Shown: piece after piece, positions 9,101 to 40,593 of the stretch
Numbering within the stretch: position 1 is the first letter of the stretch
Layout of the letters: every line of letters starts with the position of its first letter
Assembly (NCBI RefSeq): GCF_000003605.2
Contig: NW_003141829.1
Span: 80,396 to 120,988 of the forward strand
Direction: 5' to 3'
DNA length: 40,593 nucleotides
Source: Saccoglossus kowalevskii
Taxonomy: Eukaryota; Hemichordata; Enteropneusta; Harrimaniidae
Notes under the pieces: generated by a model
What the model was told of the DNA's origin: nothing
Seen by the model: the letters and a program-made list of their open reading frames with translations, nothing else
Database searches by the model: none
Made by a program: the position numbers and the translations under genes

Positions 9101-12100
9101 ATCTCTCGAAATAAAACTCTGGAAAACAGATTTTAACAAAATCCATCAATGAATATCTGAAAAAAGGTCTCATTCTGTTCAATATATATACCAAGTTTAA
9201 ACCATTCACACATGACATGAGATCCAGTCCCAGAATGTTAGAAATGTGTGATTTTGATGCACTTTCCATCTTGAATCAGTTCATGACACAAATGCACAAT
9301 AATGTACAACTAATAGACCAAATACCGGTATACTGAGTACCTACAGCTTTCTGTAGTTCATTAGTTCATAGACTAGCTTTGCTTGGACAGAGTCTTTTTT
9401 TTCAAAAGGTTCAATAGTTAATTGCTCTGGATTCAAGTTACAATTCATCGGCTTCAATCTTCAACAAGCATTTTAAGTTACTGTGACATCATGAGACATG
9501 GAAATATGCACGTATTAACTTTGTTTACATACTTATACAAGTACTTGCAAGACATTTTACGCCTTATTGCATAGTACTCAATTCTCAACAATACATTGAA
9601 CAGCATATTTAAAATGTTAAACTAGGATGTTGTTAACTTTCCCAAAATGTTTTGGCTATCATACATGTACCTCAGAAACAGCCGAACGACTAATACTACT
9701 ACAAAAAGAACACACTGAATACATAAATACATTATCTATTTATACAATTATTAATTCTTAGAATGACTTATTAATATCTATTTCTAACAGTATATATAGC
9801 AACAAAAAATAAATAAATGAGATCAACTAGGGATTACATAATTTTCATGTTTTTCATTTCTTAGTGAGAAGGTATTTTGTATAAATAATCCTACAGACTT
9901 GATATTTTTATCTGTGAACAACAAAACTCATCAATTTAACCAGTTCTCTATAGAAACTATGAAACACCAACAGCATTTGTGTCCCTTCTCTTTAAATCAA
10001 AACTGAATCAACCAGAATATAGTTCTTCCCCTAATCCAGAAGTGAGAATATGGCCCTTTCCCTCAATTCAAAACTGAACCATCAAGAATACGGCCTCTCC
10101 CCTTAATTCAAAACTGAACAATCAAGCATACAGCCCCTCCCCTTAATTCAAAACTGAACCATCAAGAATACGGCCCCTCCCCTCAATTCAATTCAAAACT
10201 GAGCCATCAAGAATACAGCCCTATCCCTTAATTCAAAACTGAACCTTAATTCAAAACTGAACCATTGAGAATATGGCCCTTCCCTTCAATTCAAATCTAA
10301 ACCATTGAGACTATGGCCTTTTCAGAACAGAATTTATTAAAACCAATTTTATCCCAAACTGCAAAACAAAATGACGTAAAACAAAATATCATAATGTATA
10401 TACCAAGTTTGAACAAATTTCGTTGATCCTTGATTTTGATGAATGCTGAGCACTAAAATGGCCACCTTTAATCATACTAAATCAGATTACATAACAAAAT
10501 TCACTAACATATGTGTGACATGAAGTATGTTATATGTGTAAAATCTGAGCATAATCAGATATAGAAAAGCATGAACAAACACATGCACAGAGGTGAATCT
10601 ATAAGCTTTCTGACTTTAACTAAACAGGGACTAAAAACGCTTCAATGTTTTCAGTAAACCAGTACATAAATCAAACTATGATCTATCTGTATATGGCAGT
10701 GAGATGCATGCTCACTTAGATTGCAAAAAAACACAGAGATGTTTAAGGAACTCTTGAGCCTCTTGACTGAGACTGCTATTACCAATGCACATTTCACAAG
10801 CAATCTGAACAAATCTTAGACGAGTCCACACAAGGTACATGTACACAAATAAAGCAATTAAATGATTTTTAAGATGAAGTGAAAAATATCACTTTTTACC
10901 AAAAATGACAAAAATATTCATCAAAATTAGAGAATTAAAGATATAATCATGAAATGAACAAAACTGAGAGAAGTCCACCTCAGGTACCCATATGTATAGT
11001 ACCAGAGCAATTTGACTTGCGGTTTTAAAAAAGTTGAAAATAACACTTTTTACCAAAGATGACACAAATATTCATCAAAATGAGAAAATTAAAGATATCA
11101 TCCAGAAATGAACAAATCTGAGAGAAGTCCACCTCAGGTACCCATATGTATAGTACCAGAGCAATTTGACTTGCGGTTTTAAAAAAGTCAAAAATAACAC
11201 TTTTTACCAAAGATGACAAAAATATTCATCAAAACAAGCCATGCATGGCACAGTCCTCGTTAGTTATCAAATTTAAGATATATAGTTTTGTTTATAGTAA
11301 TATAGCTGGAATATAACAATGTCAGGAATATGATTTTTTTAACATTAAAATGATTGACATTTGTATCTGATCGTCAAACAAGTACTTGTCCATATATATA
11401 TATAACATGATGTATAACGAATATATAAAATTTGAATATAATCAAAGCATTTAAGAGATATGGCTCTAGAAGCCCAATCATTAAAACAAAATGGCCGCCA
11501 GTCAGCCATTTCGAATCCAATCTGAAAAATAAAATGACGTGCATCAGGAACCTGTACTGTCTAATGTATGTTATAAGTTTGAACAAAATCCATCCATAAA
11601 TGCAAGAAATGCTTGATATTTGATGATTTTTTAGCACAAAAATGACCACCATTCGTCAATTTTGAATAGGATCGTCAAACCAATATATCTGTCTATCTAT
11701 AACATGATGTATAATGAATATTTAACATTTGAACATAATCAGTCAAACCAAGTTGGAGATATGGGTCTAGAAGCCCATTCATTAAAACAAAATGGCCGCC
11801 AGTCGGCCATTTTGAATGTTATCTGAAAAACAAAACTATTTGCATCAAGGTCCCATAATGTTTAATGTATATATCAAGTTTGAACAAAATCCATCTGTAA
11901 ACAGCCGGGAAATGCTTGATTTTTAAGATTTTTTAGCACAAAAATGGCCGCCATTCGGCCATCTTGAATCAGATTGTAAAACAAAAAGGTGAGCATCAAG
12001 GTCCTATAATGTCCAACGTATATACAAGGTTTGAACAAAATCCATCTGTAAACAGCCGGGAAATGCCTGATTTTGATGATTTTTGGCCATTTTGAATAGG

Positions 12101-15100
12101 ATCGTCAAACCAATATATCTGTTTATCTATGACATGATATATAATGAATATTTAAAATTTGAACATAATCAGTGAAAGCAAGTCAGAGATATGGCACGAG
12201 AACCACATTCATTAAAACAAAATGGCCACCAGCTGGCCATTTTGAATTTTATCTGAAAAACAAAATGATGTGCATCAAGATCAGGGTCCTATAATGTCTA
12301 ACGTATATACCAATTTTGAACAAAATCCATCTGTAAACAGCTGAAAAAATGTGTGATTTTGATGATTTTTAGCACAAAAATGGCTGCCATTCGGCCATCT
12401 TGAATCAGATCGTGAAACAAATTGATGTGCATATGTATAATATCATGTACAAATGTATGTTGTATGTGTGAAGTTTGATTGTGGTTGGTCCAGGAATTTC
12501 TAAGATACAGGTCCGGACGCACACACGCACAGACACACGGAGGTCAAAACATAAGTCTCCGTTTTCGAACTGCATCCAAACGGGGACTAAAAAGTTGACC
12601 CGGATGCAGACAGACACCTAACAATCTGTAGTACTTGTGTGGTGGAATCAAAGGCAATATTGTCTTTGGTGAAATACACCACATCAGTCTGCACATATAC
12701 TGGTAACTTTTAACAGAACATTAATCTACTGATTCTATTGTTTTTTATTTATGTAATTAATGTAATTAATGGTATAAACAGACTGATTTTTGACCTTCTC
12801 TAGAAGAAGAATTAAGAAGATTTAAAATAAGTCAGCATCATCTTAGCTGATTCATCTGCAATTTTTTACATGGATATTGGATCTTGGATAACCTTTAGAT
12901 GGAAAAAAATTATCTCTCCAAAGACAAGTAAATTATTCAACAATTTTGAAAATAATATTTACAAAATTATTTTTCTAAATCTATAGAAGAAACATAGTTT
13001 CATTTGAAAATATATATAATTTTCAAACACTTCAAATGAAATTCATAGTTTTGAATATACATGTAAGTGTCAACGAACATTGGTCTCATCCATAAGCATT
13101 TTAAATGAATTTAATAGTAGTCTCAGACTATAAGTATCAACTTAACTTAATTAAAATCAGATGTTTTCAAAGTTTTTTTTATCAAAAACAAAAAATATCA
13201 AAGTCCATACCATTTATTAAAAAATGACTGTTAAAATGCTTGCTGGCAAAGATAAAATTCAAATTAGTTAACTACTACAAAGTTGGGAGTAGAGTGAATG
13301 ACCTTGTAAATATGGCATTTAAAGAAAGTGACTGCAGCTGAGACTCTTAAGAAGTAGGAAGGTGATAGTCTGGGAATGTTTTAATGCCAAGTCATATTAA
13401 ATAGAGACATGGATAGAAAACAATGATATGCTATTTTACAGTAAAACCACGAGAAGACTATTGAAGTAGGACAATGTTCTAAAGTAAATAGCATCTTCTT
13501 TCTCTTCTGATGAAAAGAAGGACTGAATGGGGAGAAAAGGAAATCTCTAAGTTCCTATATTCAGCATACCCTTCAAGTTAATTGCCTCTTTAGGTAAAAA
13601 TGTGACTATACTATAAACTGGGATGCCTTGAATCTTGGCAGTAGTCATCCAGGCTTCAGGCAATATAGTGAATCATTAGCTGAACTGGTGGTACACATCA
13701 TTATCAGTGCAGGGTATGAGCAGTTTGTAAGGATGTTATCAAGACCCTGGTATCAAGATAGCTGGACTACATATTGATTTATGTGTTAATAAAGTTATTT
13801 GCAATGTTAACTAATCTGTGCTTAAGGTAGAAGCTTAGTCATAATTTAAGACCAAATTGGTCATAAATCGCATTACAATGTTCACTAGTTTATTATGTAC
13901 AATCATGAAGCTAATGTCCCATGGTACAATGAAATACCATTATTTTGTGTGTTACAGTTATGCTTTTTGAGAAACGTGTCCTAATATTTCTTAAAAACTG
14001 CTATTTTTAGAACAATTCCATAGAACACAATGTTAAAGAAAAATTGCATTTTTTGACACTTTTTAAAACCCAGATTTTTCAAATAATTGAGAACAACCAA
14101 AAGTACTTCATCATTAACAATATATGATTTTTTCAGCCTATGTCACCAGAGTAGATTTTGAGATATTGCATAATATCTCTGCCATAGGAACCTGTTATAA
14201 AAGTGCTATAATAGTGTCAAGATGGCGACTTTCCACTAAAATACAACCATCCATTTCTCCAAAAAAAGGCTGGTGACCCCCAAATTTTTTTAGGTCAATA
14301 TCCTTATATTGCCTTGGAGTACAATTTATTGTAAAATGAATAAATTCTGGGTTTTTTAATTTATGAGTAGGCTTCTACCTTAAGTATACAATTTGTGTTC
14401 AAAGATATAAATGTTTTGGCACAATCAATGCTTTTTCCAGTTATAATTTTAAATTTATAATCAGACTTTGTGATAATTTACTATCAATAAGTATTACTAT
14501 ATATATTTAATATTTGACTTTTTCACATGTTACTATAATAAACAACAATACTTAATTACTGGGATATATTTCTCTAAACTTATTACTATATTAAATTCAT
14601 AACAGTTTTCTGTTATTGTTTGAACTGGTAGCATATAATTACAGTTTTAACCATCATACATGCTTGGGAAAAAATGGCTTGATATTATACGGGGATAGGT
14701 AACAGTGAGAAATATAAATCATATAGTAAAAAGATATTCCTCCTTTATATATACTGTATTATGAACCATACAGACCTCAGTTACTTTAGAGGATCTATGG
14801 ATTTAAAGACTTTTATAATGCTTGTATTGTAAATCACTTCAATTTCAAATATTTGAAATATTTGCAAATTACTCAAGTTAGTTAACTGGCAAAATTTCTC
14901 TGGGATTCCGAAGAGAGTGATTTTCTCAACATTTATCCTCACAAATGTCCTCAAATATTAAAACGATGAAAACTGATAGAGGTAAAAACTAGTTAATAGT
15001 ACATAAAAAGACATTGGTTGAAATGTTTAACAGTACCAGTAACAGTAGCTGCCATTCATTATATTTATCAATCAATCTACTGATACTTGTTTGTTTTCAC

Positions 15101-21736: not shown

Positions 21737-24700
21737 CATCAATCAATTATGCACAGACACAAATCTTGTGACAGGCAAACAGTAATAAACCAGTACAATA
21801 AAATATCATTTGATACAGAGCCCCTACAGCACTTAGTATTGTAGCTTTATGTGACGACCATAGCATTAATAAATTCATTTTACAAATGCAAACTGACATA
21901 AATGTTTGCTTTTAAATACGTATGTCTAGCCTGTGAAGTAGAAATCATTGTTTCCATGGGAACAGTTTACTTACGTAATACAGTGATGTTAAATGTGAAG
22001 TGAGTCAGTTAGGTATATTTGTGTTGCAAATAAAACCCACTACATCAATTGTAAAGGCAAATAGTAATAAATTACCATACATTATTTAGCAGAGTTCTGA
22101 TTTATAAGATAAGACTTGTTCTTGTGTAAAACATATCTTTAATTTGCATAGTCTCAATCAGATAATATATCTTATTTTTTGTTTGTTTATTAAAGATAAT
22201 ATTTCCTGGTGCAATGGGACATTATTCCACGAAAGTTGAATGCACTCAATGTACAGTCAGTGTAGATCTATAAAAAGATTTATTACTAAAATTACAGCAT
22301 GAGTTATAGCATAGAGTAAATCACTTAAAGTTTATGTATTTTAATTATATTTAATAATGTATGTCATTTATTGAATAGAAAAAATGTAATTAGTATAGCT
22401 TAAGATTTAACTATTTCACTTCATTGTCAAGTCACTATCAAAAAAGTGGCCTGTTTTAAATATTTATTTGTTATGTCCAAAATTAATCATGAAATTATAA
22501 AATAAAAAATGTCCAAATACGCCAGATTGACACATTCAAAAATAGACTAAAAATATCAGAAGAATTGGTGTGCAAATTAGAAGATTAGTTACCGGTATAT
22601 ACATTGTATCATATCCTTGTATCAATTTGTAAATGACATAGTCCCTGTTACATATATTTTATACTGGATAGATAAAATTGATGAGAATAACCTACAGTCA
22701 TATTGGTAAACATAACAGGAAATGACATGAATCTGTAACTATGTAGGACCATCATGTAAAGTTACAATAAATTAGTCTTGATGACTTTGAATAACACAAG
22801 TATATATATAAAAGCTATGCACATGGAGATGGATGGATATAGACAAATGTAAATCCACATTTACGAACACAGGAAGACAAACAATTGCTGCCAGACATCT
22901 ATCAAATCTATTCTCATTTTATTATGAAAGTAAAGGGTTATGACATGATACAAAATTAGATGAACCAATCCATCATTGTATATGCTAATGTAATATACAC
23001 TAGAGACAATACACATGGATGACATAATTGATGAGATTTTTGTATATTTTTGTAAACTGACATCACTAAATGATTTTTGTGACAAGAGAAACAAGATTTT
23101 ATGACAAGTACACATATACATGTATCTGTAGCAGGAATTTTACAACCACATTGTGACAAGAGAAACCATACAGAGTTAAGATTTTATAACTGAATACACA
23201 GATATCTGTAGTTGGAATTTTACAAACATAGTCTGTGTGAAGATTGATTAAGTGTCAACAGAGACATATGACAAGAATTCATCAGTTCAAATCAAGGGAA
23301 CACACACTGAGAAGGAATACCTCTGGTAAACACATTAAAATAATTATACATAGAACAATTATTGAGAAATGCAGTATCAACTTGTGAGATGTAAATTGAC
23401 ATGATATTCATTGTAACCATTTACTGACGTGAATACTATGTGGTTATTACTGATACACTAGTATACTATACATGTACTACATGTAGTGTAATTATAGTGT
23501 ACTGTTTAGAGCAGACATGTAATTTGTAATATTCCTGTCATCTGCTACTATACAGATTTGTATTACAAACCTAAAGTCACCAGTAAATGATATAGAAGCA
23601 AGTGCAGTGACTGGAAGCTACAGGTAAATTAATTTATTAACAACTTCAATTAAAAATATTTGTATAAAAAGCTATGACAATACCAAATTTACGCTGTTTG
23701 CATGCACTTGAGCAGCATTTCTGATATGCATGACTATTACCTATAATGTGTGTATCATTATTTTTCTATGGCTTGCACTGTTTGAGAGAAATTTAGCTTG
23801 TTTCCAGACTGGTCTATACTTATTTTATTTTGGTAGCCTATACAACCCAAAGAAAATAAATAAATTATTAGATACAAAGTTTACAAATGGATATGATTGG
23901 GTGAAGAATATGATTACAATATGCATGTGATTGCGCTGTTAGAAACGATACAGTGATAGTAAATTTATTCTCAAAAGTCCATCACAAGGAAGAAGTTAAA
24001 AAGCAGTCATCATGTCTTACATGCTATAAAGTTTGATATGCCAAAAAATATACGAGACAATCAATATTCTAAACATGGGAAAATATAGGAAAGAACCACC
24101 ATGATCAATGCAATAAAACTGGTTATAATCTTAAAACTACACTACTATAGTTTTTATGGAAAGAAGAGATGAAATATCAATGACATTGTTTCATTATAAT
24201 ACCCTGGCTGCAAATGTCAAAAATAAATTTAACCACAATCCAAATACATTAGATGGAGTACATACTATTAAACAACAAGACTGATATGTCAAATGGTCAG
24301 ATGATATGAAACAAAAAACTTCAATTTCTAAATAAGGGTAATACTGATGTATGGAGATTAACTTACCCATCAAATAAAATCCCACTTCAAGATATCTATG
24401 ATTAACTCAGATGGAACAGTATAGCCTCACAAGCTATGTTGAATTAATTGAATCAAACTAACATTGAAACAACTGATAATGCCATTGGATTGGTTCATTA
24501 CTTACCCAATGAGGTAACTGGGGCATACTAAGCTATATAGCACACCATGGCATAAATTGGAGTATTCCAATGGAATGTGTTTATGCTAACAATCTGAAAT
24601 AGATCTCTGTATACTTAAACCTTTAACTATTTTAAAGCTGCATTACCATGGCAATGATTACTAAATAATTTCTTTCGGTTGTTACATCAATTAATTGCTT

Positions 24701-25669
24701 GAAGTAATGTGTATATAGACTAAGTAATTAAAAAAAAACTCATTTCTGTAACAAAGATTATCAAATAGGCTAACAATCTGGGGTATGTCAGATGGCAAAA
24801 GCTATCATTTTATTGGTGGACTTTGATTAGTGTATTTTAAATAGGGTCATCATATAATCAGAATGTGATCTCTTGGGATCCTAGGAAGAACATTTTTGAT
24901 TATTTTCACTGAGGTAATTTCTGTAAATGTTTAGAGAATCCTCCTGACAATTCAATGACAGTATAGTTACTCCAGAGATGGAAGAAAAGAAAACAACATA
25001 AAAAGTAAGTCAATAATGAGAAAGATAATGTTACTTATGTTTATAGGACTTTCAACCTTATACATACACATACTGATTTGTTTTATAAACATATGAATGA
25101 ACAACATCAATTTAAACTTGACACATACTGGGGGATAACCCTTTTTCTTTTAAAGAAGGGATTTGCAGCACTGTGAAAATCAAAACAGAAATCATAATTC
25201 CCCCCCAGATCAAATGAATGGTATACCAATTCATGGTGTAAAAAATGTATGCTTTGAGCAAGGTTTGGCATTTCTGAATCAAATAAGAACACATCATATT
25301 ATGTGTGTAGTTGATGCACTCCCAATAAAATCAAAAGCAATCTCAAACATAGAATCAACAAACACAGAGTGCAGAGGGCATACTTTGCTTTATCTTTTAT
25401 GTGTTACATAACAGCCCGAAATGCCAGCAAAAAGTTTTTGTGTCTACACCATCGTTTGCTTTCAGTGACATAATTATATTTTAGTTATGCACATTGTTGC
25501 ATATGAAGAAAAGTGTTCAATGTGAGGTAAAGATTCAGTATAAAATATTTTGCACTAAACATGGCGAGTTATGTCATTGGCCTTCAACAGTACAATACAG
25601 TACAGCTCGAAAAACCAAATCATGCAATAGTACCATTTTTCATCGCTGACATGAAAATTTCTGAATAAA
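21737..25669. other. Intergenic or 5' UTR intron, nothing recognised
   Basis: AT-rich sequence. A short C-family fragment (ATTTCCTGGTGCAATGGGAC, about 22201-22220) repeats the text at about 21633. No gene, RNA or complete element seen. Confidence 0.55.
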
Positions 25670-26561
25670 CAAGCAGCCTCTCAACTGAGATAGCTCCGCT
25701 GTTAGCAATGCACATTACAATTAAAGAACTAAAGATATCATTAGAAATGAACAATATATATATAAAAAACAACGGGAAAAATCTGAAAGAAGTCCACACG
25801 TAGTACGTATATATGTAATATAAAAGCAATCGGACTTGCAGTTTTCAACAAGAAGTCAAAAATATAACTTTTCACCAAAAATGACAAAAATAATCATTAA
25901 AATTAAATAATTGAAGATTTCACAACAAAATTAACAAATCTGAAAGAGGTCCACATGTAGTACCTATATACGTAATATAAAAGCAATCAAACTTGCGGTT
26001 TTTAACAAGTCGAAAATATCACTTTTTACCAAAAATGACAAAAATATTCACAAAAATTAGAAAATTAAAGATATCATTACAAAATGAACAAATCTGAGAG
26101 AGGTCCACATGTAGTACCTATATATGTAATATAAAAGCAATTGGACTTGCGGTTTTTAACAAGAAGTCGAAAATATCACTTTTTACCAAAAATGACAAAA
26201 ATATTCACTAAAATTGGAGAATTAAAGATATCATTACAAAATGAACAAATCTGAGAGAGGTCCACATATAGTATCTATATATGTAATATAAAAACAATTG
26301 GACTTGCGGTTTTTAACAAGAAGTCGAAAATATCACTTTTTACCAAAAATGACAAAAATATTCACCAAAATTAGAGAATTGAAGATATCATCATGAAATG
26401 AACAAATCTGAGAGAGGTCTACCCAAGGTACATATACACCAAGTATCAAAGCATTCAGGCTTGTAGTTTTCAAGAAGAAGTCGAAAAAGTAAAACATTGA
26501 CACGGACGACGGACAATCACTCATATTATAAGCTCCGCTCGACAAAGTCGACAGCGGAGCT
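25670..26561 (-). mobile_element. Family A hairpin-ended element (A1), Helentron-like
   Basis: Complete minus-oriented copy. The 5' hairpin is at 26531-26561 (arms AGCTCCGCT and AGCGGAGCT). The same arm recurs near the 3' end (AGCTCCGCTGT at about 25692-25702). The 3' hairpin, read on the minus strand as CAGTT-GAGA-GGCTG, is followed by CTTGTTT. The body consists of tandem units of about 157 bp (AATCTGAGAG-type starts at 25937, 26091, 26248, 26405). The 5' flank ends in TT. No coding capacity. Confidence 0.82.
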
Positions 26562-29395
26562 AATAACAATTACTCACAAGATGCAATGACAATTCATAAT
26601 AATGACAACTGAAAGTTTATATTGAAAAAATATAAAGAATGATAGTATTGTTGGTGATTGCAAAAAGCATCACAATATTAATTTCTTCCAGTTGGCAAAG
26701 TTGAAAATTGTATGAAAGATACAAATTATACCCAATGATGCATTAGATGCATATTTTTTCTAATGAAATTGATTATTTTATCAATGAGTTTAACCAGAAT
26801 TCTAAGTTATTTACATCATCATATAGAATGGTGCTTTCAATGAACAATATAAATGGCAGGTTAGGGGGTACATTAGACAAGATAATAGTGATTATAGAGA
26901 CAAGTTAGGGACTCTACTTTATGAGGTTAACAAAATGAAATTACTTTATGCAGTAATTACAAAGGAATATGTTGTGTATGATGACATAATTTACTTAGCT
27001 ATTTTTATCTAATAGGCACTTTGGGGATAGTCTAGTCATAAAATGAAAGACTGGCTGGCCAAAAACTACTTAATGTATATATTCGATAATGAGGATAAAA
27101 ATAAAAGATTAATTGCTACATTACAATTTGTGAAAAAGGTTAACAGAAAAGTTGCATCATTGTGAAAATAAAGGGCAATCATAGAAAACAATTCATTGTT
27201 ACCAACAGTTAATTTGAAAATAAACTTATAGTACCGGGGTATATAGTTTAGCTGAGATATGTTTTTGATTAAATTGCATTCTATAGAGTGTGAAAAAAGT
27301 GTCAAGTGTTTCAGCCAGCTTGATTACACAGAGAGACATTGTGACCCAGGAATATCAATGTTGAGTATTGCTGCAACATTATTAGTTGGGTTTATTTTCG
27401 CTTATTTTACTGATAGTTAAATGCAATAAATTAGAACACAGTGAACAATAATAGTTGATCACAAAATTTATTTTTTCCTTCACAAAACAATGAATTTAAA
27501 ACCAACATCGAATCTGATAAAATTAAACTCATTTTTTTTTTTATTTCTACAGTATTTACTATTTGTGCAGATATTAATTAACAATATTTATTGCCTTGTA
27601 CTTTTCTATTTGTTTTTTCAAAATCTTACCACAATTCCAAATTAGCCATTCTCTCAACTTGTGTTTTAAGTATGGTTGGTCAAATTTAAACACTCCCAGA
27701 GTTTGATTTGATTTTATATGAAAGTTTAACCATATACAGTATAATTTAACTTTGATATTTACCACAATTGCGTGTCTTTCCTACTACTATACTGTGGTTA
27801 TACTATGGTTTAACACTATGCTTGTGGCTTGTTTATAAACAATAGACTATTGTTTATAGTGTGTTTTGTTCTCTTGTTAGGATGTGTTAAAAAGCTGGTG
27901 GAAACGTAATTATGCTTACTCAGTTATTAAACACTTCTCATGATAATATATGAATTAATCAAAAACATAATTTAGGGACTCTGACTGCCCACTAATCGGT
28001 GTGTACTTAATAATCATGCCTATTTGAAAATATTACCATTGAATTTTGAAATATCACTGATAGTGTTTTTGAAATTTAATTCTAATATGCAAATTATATG
28101 TCAAATTTTTAATTTCTGAGTCAAAATCCCCTCTGGTTCTGGAACACTGGTTGAAATTGTATTACATTCTGAACTACCAGTATAGGATGGTGAATAAAAA
28201 TAATTGAACTCATTTTGTAAAGAGGACATACAGTATACCTATTGTTATACAGGCACAGTTATAAAAGTAACTGTATTCATTGCAAGGCAATAGACAAACA
28301 CTAATTTCATTGAAACCAAATTAAACAAAGTAATTGCCCTGGGTATGGTAATTTCACCCATAGAGGCTTGGTTTCAATGACAAAGTATACACTATCATCA
28401 TTCATAAGACATGCTAGTTTAATTTCATGCATTTTTTGTTCGGTAAATTGTTACAACTTAATTTGGGATAATTCAGTAATTTACTGTTTTATTTTAGTTG
28501 AAACATTCAGATTTATATTTTTCGCTGAAAGGAATTTTTCACAGTAGACTCTACAGCCTATATAGAGTCAGATGAACCACAAAAAATGTCGATATTGAGT
28601 CTATTAACTGGTTTGGAAAACAAAAGTACATAATTTGTGACTTAATTATTTCGCCTTTGGAGTCAATAAGACTAATTTAAAATTAATGATATATATTGTT
28701 GAAAAAAAAATGTGTGGTATGGTTAAGTGAAAAAATGAAGTGCACACCACATGTAGATGAAAATCCAAAAAAGTTCCATGCAATTCATTCACGTCGGAAC
28801 AAGTTTAATAATATGTAAGTGTATATGTACACCTTCACGGGCTTTTCTAGATTGTGAAAGATATGATGCCACTACGGTATAACTTTACGATCTATACACT
28901 GTCTGGTACTTTCACTGTATTGTCGGATTGGATCATCATCATTATACACACTGAACAACAAAAGCAACAATCAATGAAAACATCTCATGCTGGAAATCAA
29001 GGATCGAACTGGGAAGCTAGATCCAAATAAACACAAAGAAAGTTTAGACACCTACCCAATATCTTCTAACGTGCATATCATCGATATTATGAAGGTAATT
29101 GTGAGCGCCAATGAGATGTGGCTGCAGAGGGCGACAGACAAAACTTCGTGGTAAACTGCATGTCCGCGGCTCACCGCGATCTACACACTACTAGCATTTA
29201 CATTTTGTTCAGCACGAAGTACATCACTGAACGATCCTTTAACGAAGAAACAAACACTCCAATTGTGCAGTAACATGATTCGAAATTATTTTCAAAATAT
29301 TCAGTGAAGAATTTATGAGCAGCATAATATTAATACATATTACATTATTGTTCGTCATTTTAACCGTACACATTAATTTCTAATCAAGATTTGCG
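26562..29395. other. Intergenic region before the phosphatase promoter
   Basis: AT-rich with no gene recognised. G+C rises at about 29100-29200. On the minus strand, CGCG|GTGAGC at 29175/29174 could be the donor of an untranslated first exon of the TTL-like gene, but nothing else supports it. Confidence 0.45.
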
Positions 29396-29809: not shown

Positions 29810-32800
29810 GTAAGTACAACGTGTTATAATTACGCATAGTAATTGATTGATACTGAAAACAGATATGCAAAGAAAGCGATCGACGTCGTCGTCCCGTCCC
29901 ATTCAGTCATTACGGTGATTCACCGCGAGTGTAATTTGTTAGTTCTGGAGACAAGAAATTGAAAGTACGTCTTATGTACACTTAACATTACTTTCACTTA
30001 TTGCCATATCAATAAACAAATGTAGTTTTTTTTTTTTTGTTTTTTTTGTTTGTTTTTTTAATCATCAACATGCCGCTTGACATTCATAAAGTGAGTGGGC
30101 GTTTAGTGTATGTCTTCAGCGTTCAGGAGCATCAATCCTTTAATTGTGTCTAGCTTTTATTTCTGACACTAGAAGGTGCGACATTTCTTGAATTATTTTG
30201 GCAATTGCTCTTTATCAATATAAATTCAAACGAATAAAGTTTTTTTTACTGAGATTCAACCGATATAAAGACGATGTGATGTCTATTATTAAACCACCTT
30301 CTGTAATAATATAATGGAACTATTATTTATGCTAACAACATGAATGATTGTCCCACATTTCATTTAAATGTTTGTTTTTTTCAAAAATTCTGAATATATG
30401 CCCCAGATGTAGCTCTCATAGCATCAATAGGATTCCATATTCCTTTAGTATTGCTAGATCATTATCATGTCTTAATTTTTATGCTGCCAGTTGTTTATGA
30501 AGTTTATAAATATTTTTTTTCACAATCACCATCAGTAGATGTAGTTTCTAACAGGACTGATTTGTAGGAAATCTGAGTCACAATGAAACACCAAGTTGAG
30601 TCACCTTCGTGACTGCTGGGGAGAGAGGTATTCAAACAAAAATAAAGATTGTTTGTGGCTGTAGGGAACACAAAATTTTACACTTCTTTTGTTGATAAAA
30701 TGTGAATATTGTTTTTCTATATTACAAATTTCCAAACTACTGTAAGACGTTTTTGAAGATCCCTATCTATCAATTTATGATTGTCTGACACAAAAAATCT
30801 ATGGGTCAGTGACACTTCATATCTGCTTAGAGGGCACACCGCTCTGAAATATTTTTCATACTAACAAGACACTTTGCGATGGGCATCATTCTTGATCAGT
30901 GATATTTACAAAAATATTTGTTCACAATTTTATAAACCAGCTTGGCAATTCCCACCACCAGATAGTGTCACTGCATTGAACTGCATGTATTTTCTAACAA
31001 ATCCATGATCATTCTCGATAATTTTGTTCAATTTGCATGTGCACTATGTTTGCATTTGAAGTTCTGATGTGTATATATTTTAATACATACAGGTACACTC
31101 ACAAAAATACCCATACAATTTTAATAAGAAAATTTATTTCCGTTAGTACCTTCCTGTGATCATACATATTGGGTTGTAGGTAAGTGCTAAATCGTCATTT
31201 TTACATGTCCCGAGCTGTTTCTCAGAGATGACTTGGCCGATTTGGATCAAACTTGCTATGATGATCATACATATTTGGTTATAGGTGCACGTCATACTTT
31301 TTCCGTGATTCAAACAAATATGGCCAACTGGCGGCCATTTTGCTTTTTTATGGTACCCATGGTACTTTCTCTTGAATGCCATAAACGTTTCTGTTTAAAT
31401 TTTGTACAAAGACAGTATATCAATAAATACATCAACATGAACATTATTTATTAATTATTAATCTCCTATTAATGGTTTCAATCTAATCTCAATGACTTCA
31501 TCAGCATCAAATTGATATGTCAGATCACAAAATTTTGGACGAGGACTGTGTCATTAACAATGACTTGTTCTTACTAATTAAACTACACTGTGTAGGGTAC
31601 TCGACAGTTGTTTTTTGTTTTGTCGATTATGTCAGTCATTTGTTTTGTGTTCTTGGACAAAAATCAACAACGGTTAAATAGGTATATTATTTCCACTTTG
31701 CAGTATATCGTATCCAGTACTTGTATACTGTGTTCCCCAGCTTAAATATAAGACTGTTCGAAAACATAAGATTGTAATGTCAATTTCGTTCATTAATGTT
31801 GTATGATGTTTGAACCATTACTGTTATGCATATTATCATGTCATGTGACATATATGGATATGTGGCATGTTAGTCATACAATGTATCTCTTTTCTGATGT
31901 CCCCATTATGGCACTAGTTGCATGTCCTTATCTGCAACAGTGCTTACAGTGATATTACACTTTTAATACATTGATTTCATTGAAATTTGACCAGTGGTTG
32001 ATATTTTGGTGGAAAAGGCTAATTAATATGCAAATTATGTAATTAATATTTACAGATTGCAACCTAAAACTATTCAGGTTTGATCATTATCCCAGATCAT
32101 CTATATTTCCTTGAAAAGGTCTCAAATTGGCTGTGATGTGCACATTAGGTAATTAATAGGCATAGATTTCAACCCAAAACTAATCAGGTGTACACATTTC
32201 AATGTATCAAAGACCATTTATGTATTAAGTTCCATTGAATCTGTTGAATAGTTCCTGAGAAAAAAGTGAAAAGACTTAAAATTGTCTAATTAATATGCAG
32301 ATTAGGTCAATAATACGCACAGATTTCAACCAAAAACTAATCAGGTGTGCACATTATCCAAGACCATCTATATACCCCTGGTACTAAGTTTAATTGAAAT
32401 CTATTGAATGGTACATAAGAAACACAGGAAAATTACCTTATTAATATGCATAATAATTTTTTTTTTCTATGTTGTTGTTTTATATAAATCATGATGCAAT
32501 GAACTAAATAGTAATAATAGTAACATAGGTAACATCTGTGACACACACACTGTGATTACGGTATAATACATGTACTAGTGATTCATAGCCTTGATTTTTT
32601 TAATCAATATATTGTTTATCCTATTATCTCAATGTTGACTTTGATCTGAAGCAAGGTGACATATTGCAGTATGCATGCTGTGTTCATAGGCTTCATAGCA
32701 ATGCTATGATGAAATTCAGCTACTACATATTTTGTTTATTTCACTCAATGATATATTGCATCATGTCCATTGCAGCTAATACTTCTGATAGATTGCTCGC

Positions 32801-35800
32801 ACTTTCTTTATACATGTAATCAGATAGTGTAGATGTGAAAGTGTCTATATTATCTATAGAAAAAAACACACATATAAAGTGTGTTCGTGTCATTTTAGTG
32901 ATGTCAAATGCAAATAGTGTATAGAAATTTGTTATTATAGTTACATAAACATTTCTGACTCGAGTTAGTCTGATAAATTATAATTTCATGCTTGGTTTGA
33001 AAATTATATTAGTACCATTAGTGATTATATGTAATTACTTGGTAATGATTGCTATTTATTATTGTCATATTACAGTAATGAGCATTGTATGCTATCATTT
33101 TTATTAATCAATTCACAGTATTAATTTCATATACAGTGGCTTTCCATCATCGTCATCACAATAATAATGAAATATTAATTATAGTATTTGAATAGTAGTG
33201 TCAGGCTTTAAAATTGAAATATATTGCCATTCATAAAGTAATGTACATATGTGCTCTGATAAGAATTTAACAGAAATTTTAAATTTCCTGCTAATTAATA
33301 ATGGCTCTTATGATTTCTGCTTTCCAATTAGTGGCTGTATGTCATGTGAGTGTGTTCTTTGTTACCAAAGTTATGCCTTATTAGTCTGTATGGTTATTAT
33401 TGGTATTTTAAGTCCATGCAAACATTACGTCCATCGGTCACAACTATTTTGGGGGGTTTGGAAAAAAAAATCAAATTAAAAGCAAAATTTTATGACACTT
33501 AAACTAAAATAAATATTAATGGGTCTGCATCAATTTTGGAAAACAATTTGATCACTAACATTTAATTTTTAGCTCCGCTGTTGACTTTGTCGAGCGGAGC
33601 TTATCATACATGTATGAGTGATTGTCTGTCGTCCGTGTCAATGTTTTACTTTTTCTTCTTGAAAACTACAAGCCTGAATGCTTTGATACTTGGTGTATAT
33701 ATACCTTGGGTAGACCTCTCTCGAATTTGTTCATTTCATGATCTTATCTTCAATTCTCTAATTTTGGTGAATATTTTTGTCATTTTTGGTAAAAAGTGAT
33801 ATTTTCAACTTCTTGCTAAAAACCGCAAGTCTAATTGCTTTGTTATTACATATATAGGTACTACATGTGGACCACTCTCAAATTTGTTCATTTCATGATG
33901 ATATCTTCAATTCTCTAATTTTGATGAATATTTTTGTCATTTTTGGTGAAAAGTGATGTTTTTGAATTCTCGTTGAAAACAGCAAGTCCCATTGCATTGA
34001 TACTATGCATATTGTTCATTTTCTAATGATATCTTCTGTTTTTTAATTGAAATGTGCATTGCTAACAGCGGAGCTATCTCAGCTGCGAGGCTGCTTGTTT
34101 TATTTAGGCCTTAATAATGAAACAGTTAGATTGTACATTGCATTTTTGATGTATGTGAGTGATACACACTAGTTATGCAAAGATAAATACTTGTTTATTT
34201 CAATGTATGTAAAGATTTTGGAAGATTCAGTAAAAATGTACCTACCATGATTCAGCTGTCCATTTGCCAGACTCCTCAGTACACATAAAACAATCATAGT
34301 TTTTTCATCACAATGAGTAGCTGATTACCGCAAGATGACTGGAACTTGATCTCAAAAATATAATTCAATGAAATGTTTTTCTTCATTTTCTGTGAATGCA
34401 CTAGATATTTCATCATCATGTTTTATTATTATTTTTAGAGTGATAAATGCTGGTAAGAGTTTGTACAATGAAGACCAAGCTGCCATTGGTATTTTTCATC
34501 TAGGAGAATCATCATTTGATTCACAAAATCAACCTGCGGCAAAATCTGGTACCTCAGACACTCCTTCCAGGGAAAACTCACTGGTGCAGATGTAGTTTAT
34601 TTCTTACTATTTTAAACCGAGTAAACTGGTCCACTTTAATGTTTGTAAACTTATAGATGGGGATTACTGGTAGTCCATCCATTCACCTATCTCGCTGACC
34701 ATATTTGATCAGTTTAAAATTCATATTGTTTCATATTGTTTAGAATTTGTTCCAATTTAGAATAAAATGCATGACAAATAAAACAAAATGTTGTGCATCA
34801 GTAACTCATCATGTGTGTTCTTCATAAGTTGCGCTGTAGCTGACCCAGACATGCCCTGGAAAGTAATCAAGATGAAGGACTGCAGGGGAGTCTAAAGAAT
34901 CAATGTCGTCATGTCTTAAAACCAAATTTAAAAATCATGCATCCCATGCATCTACAATTACAGGAACTTGAACTAATCTATAAAGTCATCTGTTTGGACT
35001 GACCAGGAACTGATAATGAGGGAGAGACGAGACCCAAATAAAATTGATCATGAATGATTTTCTTATTCCCATATTGTTTTTGATCTGTAGGATCAGGATG
35101 ACAACACATACACATATTTTGCCATCTATGATGGTCACGCTGGGAATGCAGGGGCAGTTATGGCAGTCCATACATTGCACCTACACATACAAGAACACTT
35201 AAATGCTGTGGCAAATATATTAATAAATTCACCGCACTATAGCCTTCCTGAGGGAAATACCGTACATATCCACAATGACAAATATCACGGCAGAGTTAAG
35301 TGGCCTTTCCATGAAAGGGATCTTCCAACTGAGAGTCTTATATGTGGTGCACTGGAGAATGCATTCTGGGATATGGTAAGTTGAAATTTATTTGCATTAT
35401 ATTTAAGTATACATTTAGAATAATGACTTCATACAGGGACTCTTCTAAGATATAAAGTCCAACCTGAGGTAAAATGTTTGAGACTGCAGTTCATGACATG
35501 TTATTATGGTAATGACTTCATATCCAAAAAAGTCTGAGTACAATGGTGTTATCTGACTTAAAAATATCATATAGCATGAAAGCCAATGAACGCCATTCCA
35601 GATAGGTCAAAGGACAGTGCTCCCTTTTTGATGTCTCATGATCTACAGACAAGTCCTACGATAATTTATGAGAATGAAGGTACAATTTATGTAAGAGATT
35701 TGACTTAGGAAAATGAGTCTGGGTCAGGACATTTACCATATATATAAAGTCCTGCAAAGAACATTTCAATTGGTATAAAAGTATTACTAGAGTTTTATGT

Positions 35801-38800
35801 ATATTATTAGTCCCCGTTCAGACGAAGTCCGAAAACGGGGACTTATAATTCGGTCCCCGTCCGTGCGTCTGTGCGTCCATCCGGATTCATATCTCAGAAT
35901 CCCTTGGGCCGATTCTGTTCATTCTTTGCATGTGCCTAGTACTTTATGTGGGACATATGCACATGCAGTGGTTTAGCGATTCGATTCAAAATGGCCGACT
36001 GGCAGCCATCTTGGTTTTTGAAAATGTTGTATTTTGGACATGCTTTGTCAGTTTTCATTCAAACTTGGTACATAGATTATACATGTTAGGATACATGTCC
36101 ATGACGATTTATTTCACAATTGGATCAAAGATGTTCGACTGGCAGCCATCTTGTTCTTTGAAAATGTCGTATTTTGGACATGCTTTGTCAGTTTTCATTC
36201 AAATTTAGTACATAGATCATACATGTTAGGATACATGTCCCCGACCGTCCGTGAGTTCCTGAGTCTGTCTGTCCGTGCGTCAGTCTGTCCAGTCATATTT
36301 CAGAATCCTGTGGACCGATTACGTTCATTCTTTGCATGTGCCTAGTACCTTATGTGGGACATATGCACATGCAGTGGTTTAGCGATTCGATTCAAAATGG
36401 CTGACTGGCAGCCATCTTGTTTTTTGAAAATGTTGTATTTTGGACATGCTTTGTCAGTTGTCATTCAAACTTGGTACATAGATTATACATGTTAGGATAC
36501 ATGTCCATGACGATTTATTTCGCAAGATGGACGACTGGCAGGCATCTTGTTTTTTTTTTTTTTATGCGGTATCTTGGACGTGCTCTGTCAGTTTTCATTC
36601 AAATTTGGCATATACATGTACTTTATACATGTTAGGATGCATGTCCATGACAATTTGTCAGGATGGCCGATTGACAGCCATCTGACTTTTTGGCCTTACT
36701 ACTATATTTCCACAATTTATGTATCATTTTCATTCGTATTTGGCACATATATAATACATATCAGTGTGTTTCATAATCAGATCAAAGATGGCCGAATAAT
36801 GGCTGTTTTTATTTTTGGCCATATTACTACTACATGGAACATGTGTTTTGATGTAAATAAACAATCTGTTATATACGCCACTTAGAACTCAAATTTCAAG
36901 GACACGCTTGCGACAACCCTTCTGCTTTAATATGACGAGCACAAAGAGAACTTTCAAAAATTTAACGGGGACTGTGTCATTTTCATTGACTTATTTAAAA
37001 TCATAGGTTTGATTCATGTTTAAATCCTAAAGTAAATACATCATTCAGGACTATAAGAAAACATGTTTCAGTACCAACTTTTATGTATTGATTTCACAAG
37101 AGATATGGCTTTGTGAATTTTTGATGGCAGGAAAATTTCAGCTTTCATAGAATTGAGAATTTCACTGTGGAAATTGAGTCTCCGTAATGGCCATTCAATT
37201 GTCAAATAAAAATAATTGATTCAACCTGCATCCTGATGCAGATACTATGTACTTAAAAGTAGCAAGACTTGTAAATTTGAAATGAATGACATCAAGTACA
37301 TCTCTGATTACCAACTGTAGACCAGTGTTCTCTCTAACAAAACTGATTTTGTAAGGATCCTCAGTCAAAATGAAATCCTCCAAAATCAAATTGAGTCAGT
37401 TTCTTGACTGCTAGGGAGGAAAGAAAAAATAAAATTGTATGTGATGGACCAAATAAAACCTTTGTTCATAGAAGGAATTTTGTTTTACCAAATTATAACT
37501 TTGTAAGTATAATAAGATTGTAAGATATGCCAGTGAATCAGCATAACTACATGTACATGTGTAGTTGAGTCACAGCAAATTTCTGTGCGTCAATGGCATG
37601 TCATATCGGCTTAGGGGTATGTAATCGAGGAAACATACAAACTAATATACAATGGTCAAAGTATTCACACATTGACAATGTCAATCTAGTTTACTAGTGG
37701 GGCTAACAGACTGCAGTACATGTCCCTGTAATTCAAATACCATGTTGGGTTATCTACTTGCCCTACCAACACATGTACATGTATAACCCAATCAACATAT
37801 TAATACATGACATTGTTGCTTCCCTGATTATTATAAATTACATGTTATAATAATAATTTTGTTTGATGCACAGGATGAACAGATAGGTCATGAGAAACAC
37901 ATCTTCCGTATACCAGGTGGTTGTACTGCCTTAGTAGCAATATTTCTACATGGTAAACTATATTTATCGTGTGCAGGTGATTCAAGGTAAATATCCCATG
38001 TTATCAGAATGCAGTCAAACACAGTCATTTTGGCCCTACAGTAAAGTATGACCCTATATTTGACAACTTATTTTTACTATGCCATCTGAATTATTCATTT
38101 GTTATCACATCAGTGTTTGTTATGACAACTTATTGAAAACTATGTTTTGTGTACTTCTAGCTGGGTTGAGAACATTTTTAGTAAATCCTGAATTTGTTTA
38201 GCTTGGTCACTACATTGGGGAAAATATTGTTAAAATTATGGTCATCGAATGGGTTTTAACAGTGACTTATGTTCTGACCATTGTGCATCTATTTCTATAT
38301 CTTGAGCATGCCTGGACCAATTACATTCAAACTTCAAACATACATCCTGCATCTTGGGATACATATGCTTGCCATTGGTTTTACCAATGAATCAAACCAA
38401 ATCTTGGTCATGTATTAATTGATTATATTCAAATTTAATTGAACATTATGGGACTTATGAATTCAAAATGGCTGACTAGTGGTTCTGAATGCAGTTCTGG
38501 AGACATGTTTTGACTGTTAATTTTCAAACTTTATATATACATCATGCTCTGATTCAAGATGGCCAAATCGCAATTCTATCAGTGTTAAAATTTCATCAAA
38601 ATGTATGTACATTGAATGTTACACACCTTGATACACATCAGATTGGATTCAAAATGGCAGACTGGCAGCCATTTTAGCTAATGCAGCTTTGGAGAACCAT
38701 TCATGTTCAAACTTTATTTCTCAAACTAATGCAATTACTTATTGATTTCAGAGCAATCATAGTGAGGAACAATGAAATAATAGAGATGTCACAAGAATTT

Positions 38801-40593
38801 ACACCAAGTACAGAAAGACAAAGATTACAACATTTAGCATGGATCCAACCATGTTTATTAGATAATGAATTTACACATTTAGAATTTCATCGACGAATTT
38901 ACAAAAAAGACATTGGTAAAAGAGTATTATACAGAGATAAACACATGACTGGATGGTAAATATTGTCAGATTTGAAATACAATATATATGCTTTTTTTTA
39001 TTTCATATTTTATTTGCCAGGTGATATTTATTAACATTTGTTTAGGAATTACACTGTGAATGAACTGAACACTGTAAAATATATCTTTTTTTAGCTTTTT
39101 TGTAGCTTGCTATCTCAGAGTGTTTTATAGTATGATGACATTTGGCAATGTGTTCATTAATAAAAATACAAGCTGGGTGTCTATAACACAATCCTTACAC
39201 AAATGTATTTGTAATCAAGACTGATCCAAGCTGTGAAGCAATAATGCTGTAGGATGGAGTCAATTTATAAGATGTTTGACACTATGCTAGTCACACAATG
39301 TATTTTCTCGGTTTCATTAGGGCTCATAAAATAGTAACTGCAGAAGACACCAAGTTTCCTTTGATATATGGAGATGGTAAGAAATCTAGAATGTTAGCAA
39401 CAATAGGTGTAACCAGAGGATTCGGAGATCATGAACTTAAAGTACATGACACAAATATTTACCTGAAACCATTCCTTAGTCCTATTCCAGAGGTGAGTTG
39501 GCATTCTTTTTTAGCTCCGCTGTCGACTTTGTCGAGCGGAGCTAATCATATGAGTGATTGTCCGTCGTCGTCCGTGTCAATGTTTTACTTTTTCGACTTC
39601 TTCTTGAAAACTACAAGCCTGAATGCTTTGATACTTGGTGTATATGTACCTTGGGTAGACCTCTCTTAGGTTTGTTCATTTCATGTTGATATCTTCAATT
39701 CTCTAATTTTGGTGAATATTTTTGTCATTTTTGGTAAAAAGTGATATTTTCGACTTCTTGTTAAAAACCGCAAGTCCAATTGCTTTGATATTACATATAT
39801 AGGTACTACATGTGGCCTCTCTCAGATTTGTTCATTTTGTAATGATATCTTCAATTCTCTAATTTTGGTGAATATTTTTGTAATTTTTGGTAAAAAGTGA
39901 TATTTTCAACTTCTTGCTAAAAACCGCAAGTGCAATTGCTTTGATATATTATACATATAGGTACTACATGTGGTCCTCTCTCAGATTTGTTCATTTTGTA
40001 ATGATATCTTTAATTCTCTAATTTTGATGAATATTTTTGTAATTTTTGGTAAAAAGTGATATTTTCGACTTCTTGTTAAAAACTGCAAGTCCAATTGCTT
40101 TGATATTACATATATAGGTACTACATGTGGATCTCTCTCAGATTTGTTCATTTTGTAATGATATCTTCAATTCTCTAATTTTGGTGAATATTTTTGTAAT
40201 TTTTGGTAAAAAGTGATATTTTCAACTTCTTGCTAAAAACCGCAAGTCCAATTGCTTTGATATTACATATATAGGTACTACATGTGGACCTCTCTCAGAT
40301 TTGTTCATTTTGTAATGATATCTTTAATTCTCTAATTTTGATGAATTTTTTTGTCATTTTTGGTAAAAAAGTGATATTTTCGACTTCTTGTTAAAAACCA
40401 CAATCATTTATGGTGAAAAATTATATTTTTGAATTCTTGTTGAAAACAGCAAGTCCCATTGCTTTGAGACTATACATATTGTTTATTTTCTAATGATATC
40501 TTCTGTTCTTTAATTGAAATGTGCATTGCTAACAGCGGAGCTATCTCAGCCGAGAGGCTGCTTGTTTCAGTCCTATTCCAGAGATGAGTTGCC
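29574..40593 (+). CDS. PPM1H: PPM1H/J/M-type PP2C Ser/Thr protein phosphatase; 3' end outside window
   Basis: Six exons (29574-29809, 34439-34583, 35091-35375, 37874-37986, 38752-38955, 39321-39492) join with consistent phases into 385 codons. Metal-dependent PP2C motifs seen: NEDQ (89-92), FAIYDGHAG (137-145, Asp141 metal ligand), GGCTAL (237-242), AGDSRA (256-261) and ATIGVTRGFGDHELKVHD (Asp364). Segments specific to the PPM1H/J/M branch are present: FPYSRPEFL (36-44), SADHVLRPIL (54-63), EFTPSTERQRLQ, NEFTHLEF and KFPLIYGDGKKSR. Human PPM1H is about 514 residues, so roughly the last quarter is missing. Vertebrate PPM1H dephosphorylates LRRK2-modified Rab GTPases; that role here is inference. 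Vertebrates have three paralogues, and this gene may represent their single invertebrate counterpart, so the symbol means the group. Confidence 0.95.
30567..30850. repeat. Family E dispersed repeat, copy 1
   Basis: Shares a series of blocks in the same order with 37350-37630: GAGTCACAATGAAA, TTGAGTCA, GTGACTGCTGGGGAG, and near the end CATATCTGCTTAGAGG. It is diverged and no ends are defined. Confidence 0.55.
31146..31567 (+). mobile_element. Family B element (B3), 5'-truncated
   Basis: Body with AAATATGGCCAACTGGCGGC and a 3' end reading GAGGACTGTGTCATT. The 3' hairpin GTCATT-AAC-AATGAC (31550-31564) is followed by CTTGTT. The left hairpin and most tandem units are missing. Confidence 0.6.
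32010..32455. repeat. Family D diverged tandem array
   Basis: At least three related units, each with AATTAATATGCA-like text, GATTTCAACC, AACTAATCAGGTGTGCACA and CAAGACCATCTATAT. Cores start near 32055, 32166 and 32323. Unit lengths vary (about 110 and 157 bp), so this is an old array or repeated insertion. Confidence 0.6.
33571..34097 (+). mobile_element. Family A hairpin-ended element (A2), Helentron-like
   Basis: Complete short copy, 527 bp. The 5' hairpin is at 33571-33601 with the inner pairing region TTGACTTTGTCGA. The opposite arm ACAGCGGAGCT is at 34065-34075. The 3' hairpin CAGCT-GCGA-GGCTG is at 34080-34093, followed by CTTGTTTT. It contains about two tandem units, fewer than A1 and A3. 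The 5' flank is a T run. No coding capacity. Confidence 0.85.
34439..34583 (+). CDS. PPM1H: Phosphatase exon 2
   Basis: 145 bp; acceptor TTTTTAG|A completes Glu79. It encodes VINAGKSLYNEDQAAIGIFH and then a Ser-rich variable insert to SRENSL. Donor CTG|GTGCAG is weak but is the one that keeps phase 0 with exon 3. The open frame continues to 34595, and a GT there would break the frame. The 3' boundary is therefore less certain than the exon itself. Confidence 0.82.
34584..35090 (+). other. Phosphatase intron 2
   Basis: 507 bp between exons 2 and 3. No repeat or further exon recognised. Confidence 0.7.
35091..35375 (+). CDS. PPM1H: Phosphatase exon 3 (DGHAG motif)
   Basis: 95 codons, phase 0 both ends; acceptor ATCTGTAG|GAT, donor GATATG|GTAAGT. 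It encodes YFAIYDGHAGNAGAV, the PP2C metal-binding motif with Asp141, then a helix, a His-rich variable loop (residues about 176-196) and ESLICGALENAFWDM. Confidence 0.93.
35809..36993 (+). mobile_element. Family B hairpin-ended element (B2), Helentron-like
   Basis: Complete plus-oriented copy, 1185 bp. The 5' hairpin is at 35809-35843 (AGTCCCCGTT ... AACGGGGACT with an inner CAGAC-GAA-GTCCG stem). The matching arm AACGGGGACT is at 36964-36973. A 3' hairpin GTCA ... TGAC (36976-36990) is followed by CTTATTT. Internal units of about 140 bp carry GACTGGCAGCCATCTTG. The CpG-rich segment near the 5' hairpin recurs at about 36240-36300, so a larger block is also duplicated. The 5' flank ends in TT. 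Confidence 0.82.
37350..37630. repeat. Family E dispersed repeat, copy 2
   Basis: Same block order as the copy at 30567-30850 (TCAGTCAAAATGAAAT, TTGAGTCAG, TTGACTGCTAGGGAGG, CATATCGGCTTAGGGG). Both copies lie in phosphatase introns in the same orientation. Confidence 0.55.
37874..37986 (+). CDS. PPM1H: Phosphatase exon 4
   Basis: 113 bp; acceptor GATGCACAG|GAT, donor TCAAG|GTAAAT. It encodes DEQIGHEKHIFRIPGGCTAL and then VAIFLHGKLYLSCAGDS, the central PP2C beta-sheet. Gly-Gly-Cys-Thr-Ala and Ala-Gly-Asp-Ser-Arg are family signatures. Confidence 0.94.
37987..38751 (+). other. Phosphatase intron 4
   Basis: 765 bp. The right half (about 38290-38690) is a decayed B-like body with AAAATGGCAGACTGGCAGCC and related strings but no recognisable ends. 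It stops about 60 bp before exon 5. Confidence 0.6.
38290..38690 (+). mobile_element. Decayed family B fragment (B4)
   Basis: Three relics of the B core (AAAATGGCTGACTAG, AAGATGGCCAAATCG, AAAATGGCAGACTGGCAGCC), with GCATGCCTGGACCAATTACA resembling the B 5' body. Hairpins are absent. Confidence 0.5.
38752..38955 (+). CDS. PPM1H: Phosphatase exon 5 (flap region)
   Basis: 204 bp; acceptor GATTTCAG|A completes Arg260, donor GGATG|GTAAAT. It encodes AIIVRNNEIIEMSQEFTPST, ERQRLQHLAWIQPCLLDNEF and THLEFHRRIYKKDIGKRVLY, then RDKHMTGW. This long flap-like segment is characteristic of PPM1H/J/M. Confidence 0.95.
38956..39320 (+). other. Phosphatase intron 5
   Basis: 365 bp, AT-rich. Nothing recognised. 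Confidence 0.7.
39321..39492 (+). CDS. PPM1H: Phosphatase exon 6 (last exon in window)
   Basis: 172 bp; acceptor TTTCATTAG|G completes Trp328, donor CCAGAG|GTGAGT, phase 0 out. It encodes KFPLIYGDGKKSRMLATIGV and TRGFGDHELKVHDTNIYLKP to SPIPE. Asp364 of GFGD corresponds to the metal-binding Asp of PP2C enzymes. The next exon should encode the ATDGLWD region and is outside the window. Confidence 0.95.
39513..40564 (+). mobile_element. Family A hairpin-ended element (A3), Helentron-like
   Basis: Complete plus-oriented copy, 1052 bp. The 5' hairpin is at 39513-39543. About five tandem units of 155-159 bp follow (GATTTGTTCATT-type starts at 39670, 39825, 39984, 40141, 40298). The opposite arm is at 40532-40542. 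The 3' hairpin CAGCC-GAGA-GGCTG (40547-40560) is followed by CTTGTTT. It begins 20 bp after the last base of the exon 6 donor region's first G (39493) and is preceded by a T run. No coding capacity. Confidence 0.87.
40569..40593. repeat. Imperfect copy of the exon 6/intron 6 junction
   Basis: 25 bases matching 39478-39502 with two mismatches; it may continue past the window edge. The GT of the splice donor reads AT here, so this copy cannot act as a normal donor. Confidence 0.8.

Follow-up and report, generated by a model that had tools for sequence, protein, structure and literature searches.

Helentrons and their non-autonomous relatives (HINE) are described from mite, Culex and Drosophila, and the parts of that account drawn on here (PMC4067079) give them subterminal inverted repeats (subTIRs) accompanied by a palindrome close to the 5′ end, a 3′ stem-loop, a variable number of Ts at the ends, no modification of the target, and partners that encode Rep, helicase and endonuclease. 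The same end anatomy and target behavior are found in a repeat family of the hemichordate Saccoglossus kowalevskii, here called family A, and Rep, helicase and endonuclease frames are also present in its genome. We analyzed a stretch of 40,593 nucleotides, hereafter the window, corresponding to positions 80396-120988 of its contig (NW_003141829.1, forward strand) in a genome assembly of 572 Mb and 4830 contigs (GCF_000003605.2). Judged by its termini and insertion sites, family A is very probably a family of non-autonomous Helentrons.

Family A elements in the window

The original prediction, made from the letters of the window, had named three complete copies of family A (A1, A2 and A3), and these turned out to be real: exact AGCTCCGCTGT is present six times in the window, twice per element, once at the 5′ end and once inverted at the 3′ end, with A1 lying on the minus strand. 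The tandem arrays were delimited with Tandem Repeats Finder (TRF), which bore out the claimed 157-bp units in all three copies.

39508..40567, plus strand: A3, full family A element including the T-runs (subTIR 39513-39523, inverted repeat 39535-39543, 3′ subTIR 40532-40542, CTTGTTT to 40567)
39658..40403, plus strand: 157-bp tandem array of A3, 4.7 copies (TRF); a 315-bp unit also scores
33566..34100, plus strand: A2, full family A element with ~1.8 tandem units
33713..33999, plus strand: 157-bp tandem array of A2, 1.8 copies (TRF)
25667..26566, minus strand: A1, full family A element with the 5′ variant TTATT
25779..26419, minus strand: 157-bp tandem array of A1, 4.1 copies (TRF)

From the 5′ end, a family A element consists of TT(T/A)TT, AGCTCCGCTGT, an 11-base spacer, AGCGGAGCT, a GTCC/GTCG stretch and the 157-bp tandem units, followed towards the 3′ end by AATGTGCATTGCTA, ACAGCGGAGCT, a small hairpin (CAGCC-GAGA-GGCTG in A3), CTTG and TTT. 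AGCGGAGCT is a 9-bp inverted repeat that pairs with the first nine bases of AGCTCCGCTGT and provides the 5′ palindrome, and the GTCC-like stretch was recognized in A1, A2 and A3 by direct reading of the sequence. We saw no protein-coding capacity in family A, and Pfam searches with ten single open reading frames of the window gave no match at E 0.001. When up to two mismatches were allowed, AGCTCCGCTGT had 14 matches in the window against 2.0 expected, a number reached in 0 of 100 shuffles. Furthermore, an architecture scan of both strands, requiring an 11-mer with a 9-bp partner close by and the inverted 11-mer 300-1300 bp away, returned A1, A2, A3 and one unrelated CAAAATGGCCG match; in the control, scanned on one strand, at least one match appeared in 4 of 200 dinucleotide shuffles. 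The nested hairpin proposed for the 5′ end folds with −13.0 (A1), −11.3 (A2) and −13.0 kcal/mol (A3), each value below 1000/1000 mononucleotide shuffles, and for A2 also below 200/200 dinucleotide shuffles (z −6.4).

Ends and insertion sites of family A across the genome

A genome search with A2 yielded 3167 first-look candidates, with 40 scored and 41 places listed; the latter comprised A2 itself plus 40 further places with 88-92% identity, including partial copies of which one spans only bases 145-529, three begin at 43-45 and one at 18. The copies examined are those most like A2, which explains why their lengths (518-542 bases, excluding A1 and A3) cluster around ~530. After removal of the duplicates L009-L016, the end analysis comprised 42 copies, namely 40 loci of the A2 search (A2 included) plus A1 and A3. 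Applying a chosen cut-off, we obtained clean ends in 35/42, with TT(T/A)TT directly followed by AGCTCC at the 5′ end and CTTG directly followed by TTT at the 3′ end; the copies lacking them were L023, L035, L041, L044, L045, L046 and L047. Two loci, L004 and L024, each hold two neighboring family A copies.

The predicted insertion next to T was borne out in 35/35 clean copies, all of which have T at both −1 and +1. Upstream of the element, T was counted in 34 copies at −2, 29 at −3 (A in 5), 34 at −4, 34 at −5 and only 16 at −6, and after CTTG in 33 copies at +2, 31 at +3 and 22 at +4. Because the frequency falls beyond −5 and +3, the Ts look partly carried by the element (5′ TT(T/A)TT and 3′ TTT), as has been reported for HINEs, so that the ends of family A reach a few bases further out. 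Both 11-bp repeats match perfectly in 26/35 clean copies, with one mismatch in 6/35 and two in 3/35, and in L005 an identical base change occurs in both. They are asymmetric, as had been claimed: the 5′ repeat lies near the tip, whereas the 3′ repeat is set back, 22 bases inside CTTG and just before the second small hairpin, in the clean copies. Across the 35 clean copies, the 5-bp stem of this hairpin is preserved: of 175 cells, 166 are Watson-Crick, 7 G-T and 2 broken. Variation within the 3′ end peaks at a loop position, which is changed in 17/35.

A target duplication had been named as one of two observations that would speak against a Helentron, and no consistent one beyond the Ts was detected among the 35 clean copies, for which the flanks touching the element were compared. 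With the T-runs stripped, the two flanks shared 2 bases in 4/35 copies (1.5 expected), 3 bases in 1/35 (0.2 expected) and 4 or more in 0/35; with the Ts kept, sharing stayed near that of re-paired flanks, e.g., 4 bases in 16 copies vs 13.2. In addition, the window itself contains a paralogous empty site for one of the insertions, L029, inside B1, an element of a second repeat family (family B, see below).

36341..36841, plus strand: paralogous empty site of the L029 family A insertion, inside B1

The joined flanks of L029 match this interval with 89.7% identity over 525 bp, spanning the joint, and the 14 Ts of B1 correspond to 6 Ts before plus 7 after the element in the filled site, with no gain. 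At L029, family A is thus inserted within the poly-T of a family B element, and owing to this nesting no second individual was needed to obtain an empty site. At L021, the 3′ Ts of a family A copy run straight into the 5′ end of a family B element. Other joined-flank matches across the joint (L008, L042 and L045; 64-74% identity) were judged to be chance or AT-rich similarity and were discarded; L045 lacks the 5′ end.

Helentron-type protein frames in the same genome

Using the Pfam profile Helitron_like_N, we found 8 matches in the genome, distributed over 7 contigs, and inspected up to ~10 kb on each side, with parts of the stretches at C2261, C3364, C2109 and C1873 reading N. At C2261 (L057/L058), three frames lie in a row, namely Rep with 977 codons, PIF1 with 502 and an endonuclease/exonuclease/phosphatase with 238, with domain scores of E 3.9e-31 (Helitron_like_N), 3.7e-24 (PIF1) and 5.1e-12 (Exo_endo_phos). 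Its motif region reads FYRVEFQQCGSPHTH, in which FYR, like the S that separates G from P, agrees with published Helentron signatures. Inverted 8-12-mers on either side of this Rep gene gave only matches without a hairpin. Directly after the endonuclease frame we noticed a candidate 3′ end (a hairpin, then CTTG), and ~3 kb upstream of the three frames a fragment of an RVT_1 reverse transcriptase below the Pfam cut-off.

The decayed Rep frame at C3364 reads YRVEFQHRRSPHIH in our interpretation and is accompanied by A and B remnants, one of which retains an intact A 3′ end, about 8 kb upstream of Rep. On the same strand, the decayed frame is preceded by a degenerate A 5′ region and followed downstream by an A-like stretch that lacks hairpin ends. 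Since the downstream stretch has a 5′ interior of its own, we tentatively read the two as separate remnants; together they may also represent a decayed partner. The same Rep frame continues into a minisatellite of ~30-bp units (L060, about 640-1600). Two A-like 3′ ends are present at C1873, one downstream of a Rep fragment and one (L069, 5453-5487, minus strand) on a different interior; the latter adjoins unreadable sequence and is a candidate relative or partner.

Points against a Helentron origin and alternative explanations

Several observations weigh against assigning family A to the Helentrons. The energy of the 3′ hairpin is weak, being equaled in 8 (A3), 72 (A2) and 243 (A1) of 1000 shuffles, and that of the whole 3′ end in 44 (A3), 50 (A2) and 84 (A1) of 200 dinucleotide shuffles; energetically, the small hairpin is exceptional in A3 only. 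A duplication consisting of Ts alone may have occurred. Rep, PIF1 and endonuclease of C2261 lie in three separate frames with no fused protein seen, and the Rep motif of C238, FEFQSSGALGNRPHVH, lacks the Helentron GSPH. The original prediction had suggested looking for longer copies with Rep/helicase between the same ends. Helentron-type frames are present in the genome, but in the readable surroundings of the 8 matches no Rep was seen to be enclosed by a pair of intact family A ends, whereas coding partners with matching ends are known for the HINE/Helentron elements, according to the parts of PMC4067079 consulted.

A further point against is a 23-base near-repeat flanking A3, which an insertion into a T-run does not explain. 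Four exon translations between 34350 and 39492, when joined, match the PDB chain of Protein phosphatase 1H (E 4.5e-73); A2 ends about 250 bases upstream of the first PPM1H-like exon found, and A3 starts 20 bases past the apparent splice donor at 39493. The places occupied by family A include an apparent intron of this gene.

39478..39500, plus strand: exon end and splice donor of the PPM1H-like gene, with a near-copy at 40569-40591 (22/23 identical)

The near-copy begins one base after the CTTGTTT of A3, and the local score of the two flanks was 41 against a shuffle maximum of 20 (41 reached in 0/500 shuffles). No repeat above shuffles was present in the flanks of A1, A2, B1 and B2; those of the remaining family A copies were compared only for duplications touching the element. 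The contig ends with the window and the repeat runs into this end, so its likelier source is a duplication that was already in place or an effect of the assembly end. We consider it very unlikely that the exon-end/donor repeat was generated or picked up by the insertion of A3; if it was, a copied splice site could be placed beside a new insertion. Such a target-site outcome is not mentioned in the portions of the HINE accounts PMC4067079 and PMC7492417 considered here. The family A copies at L024 and L026 also lie, like A3, shortly 3′ of GTGAGT or GTAAGT in the left flank.

Inverted repeats, missing coding capacity and Ts on both sides would equally suit a miniature inverted-repeat transposable element (MITE) mobilized by a cut-and-paste DDE transposase, with a short T-run as the duplicated target. 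Similar elements were earlier classed as MITEs, as the parts of PMC4067079 and PMC5139131 considered indicate, and with the Ts stripped, slightly more copies than expected share 2-3 flank bases, which points in the same direction. However, the 3′ repeat is not located at the tip, flank sharing near that of re-paired flanks leaves no fixed target duplication, and 14 Ts in the empty site vs 6 + 7 in the filled one show no gain, making a MITE highly improbable, although no DDE transposase search was made. The satellite-like 157-bp units could also stem from satellite DNA, or from repeats of retroposon origin whose hairpins arose by chance, but fixed ends against unrelated flanks, a unit number that varies between constant ends, and the lack of both a visible poly-A tail and a consistent target duplication render this explanation scarcely credible. 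A family of canonical non-autonomous Helitrons would also leave no target duplication, carry a 3′ hairpin and end in a tip of which CTTG is reminiscent (CTRR). To our knowledge, canonical Helitrons have no paired inverted repeats. Moreover, they are defined by 5′ TC, 3′ CTRR and an A-T target in the sections of PMC4067079 considered, whereas family A starts with AG after Ts and ends with CTTG before Ts, so that we excluded it from this class and regard the possibility as next to negligible.

The proposed Helentron/HINE class is, in contrast, supported by the end structure and its recurrence across the genome, the insertion into T-runs, the lack of a consistent target duplication, the one empty site, the Helentron-type frames in the same genome and the published HINE layout. 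In line with what is established for Helitron-like elements, a Rep/helicase/endonuclease protein encoded elsewhere would then act in trans on family A, recognizing the 5′ end by its hairpin and the 3′ end by its inverted repeat and hairpin; one strand would be peeled off by rolling-circle replication, and strand transfer would join this single strand into a T-run, leaving the target unduplicated. We infer a partnership with a particular autonomous element.

Family B and further repeats

The window contains additional elements with the layout of family A.

35809..36996, plus strand: B1, family B element with the layout of family A
11231..12588, minus strand: B2, family B element whose ends differ from those of B1 by single mismatches; carries CTTGTTTT
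31538..31572, plus strand: B3, 3′ end of a family B element, with a degenerate inverted repeat, a 6-bp hairpin and CTTGTT; 5′ end not located
about 38250-38400: match to the body of family B, with what may be a degenerate end
10757..11230, minus strand: A4, degenerate family A remnant without 5′ end, adjoining the 3′ end of B2 (74.6% identity to A2 over 457 bp)

B1 starts with AGTCCCCGTT, which folds back on AACGGGGACT, continues with GTCC-like and tandem repeats and ends with AACGGGGACT, a hairpin and CTTATTT; the tandem units of family B are of the CAAAATGGC type, and CTTGTT occurs in 2/3 of the 3′ ends seen. Family B was found by a relaxed 9-mer architecture scan, which also catches CAAAATGGC-type and other tandem repeats. 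With up to two mismatches, AGTCCCCGTT has 16 matches in the window against 9.4 expected (16 reached in 2 of 100 shuffles); this count is unremarkable alone, and family B therefore rests on the placement of the exact matches. Its 3′ hairpins have ordinary energies, equaled in 109 (B3), 188 (B2) and 502 (B1) of 1000 shuffles, and its 5′ hairpins better ones (equaled in 2 and 44 of 1000); by eye, a compensated pair distinguishes the hairpins of B2 and B3 (GCCAT/ATGGC vs GTCAT/ATGAC). From these sequence features, family B appears to be a second HINE-like family with the layout of family A and a different sequence. B2 was probably inserted into A4, as its 3′ end adjoins A4 sequence, and the same B2-type 3′ boundary as at this junction is found in L006. 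The 5′ flank of B2 compared weakly with the family A 5′ region, the scores being reached in 11 (A2), 33 (A3) and 122 (A1) of 500 shuffles, so that it is the 3′ junction that speaks for the nesting.

A third dispersed repeat (13808-14335 vs 21296-21749, inverted, about 70% identity) showed no ends of the family A or B type by eye, and at 21159-21371 three repeats of a 71-bp unit differ by a single base change.

Comparison with known elements

At least one of three terminal 10-11-mers and an interior 18-mer of family A occurs in 35 papers (full text, without figures, supplements or Repbase), and among the 20 titles listed none deals with such an element; the 31-base 5′ hairpin had 0 matches in IMG/VR and 0 in a prokaryote genome collection, as expected for an animal element. 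A close counterpart is Cg_HINE of the Pacific oyster, for which the likeness was judged by description, not by sequence. According to the parts of PMC7492417 consulted, its subTIRs normally measure 11-12 bp (11 bp in family A), its complementary inverted repeat 7-12 bp at a distance of 1-12 bp (9 bp with an 11-base spacer in family A), its microsatellite is GTCY/GTCC/GTCK (a GTCC-like stretch in family A), and the consensus of its central tandem repeats 138-181 bp (157 bp in family A). A 3′ subTIR with a palindrome, a preference for TT and the absence of target duplication are common to both. The pearl elements of bivalves (CvA, DTC84), as partly described in PMC5139131, resemble family A by description in being modular and carrying short internal tandem arrays. 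PMC4067079 and PMC7492417 give the same anatomy feature by feature, and the kind is therefore already known; what may be undescribed is this one family, not its well-known class. A single 40-kb window thus holds two families with the same layout and different sequences, and CTTG followed by TT forms the majority of their 3′ tips. The general picture is left unchanged, and the dispersed family A is one more case in support of Helentron passengers spreading short arrays of satellite-like units in invertebrate genomes.

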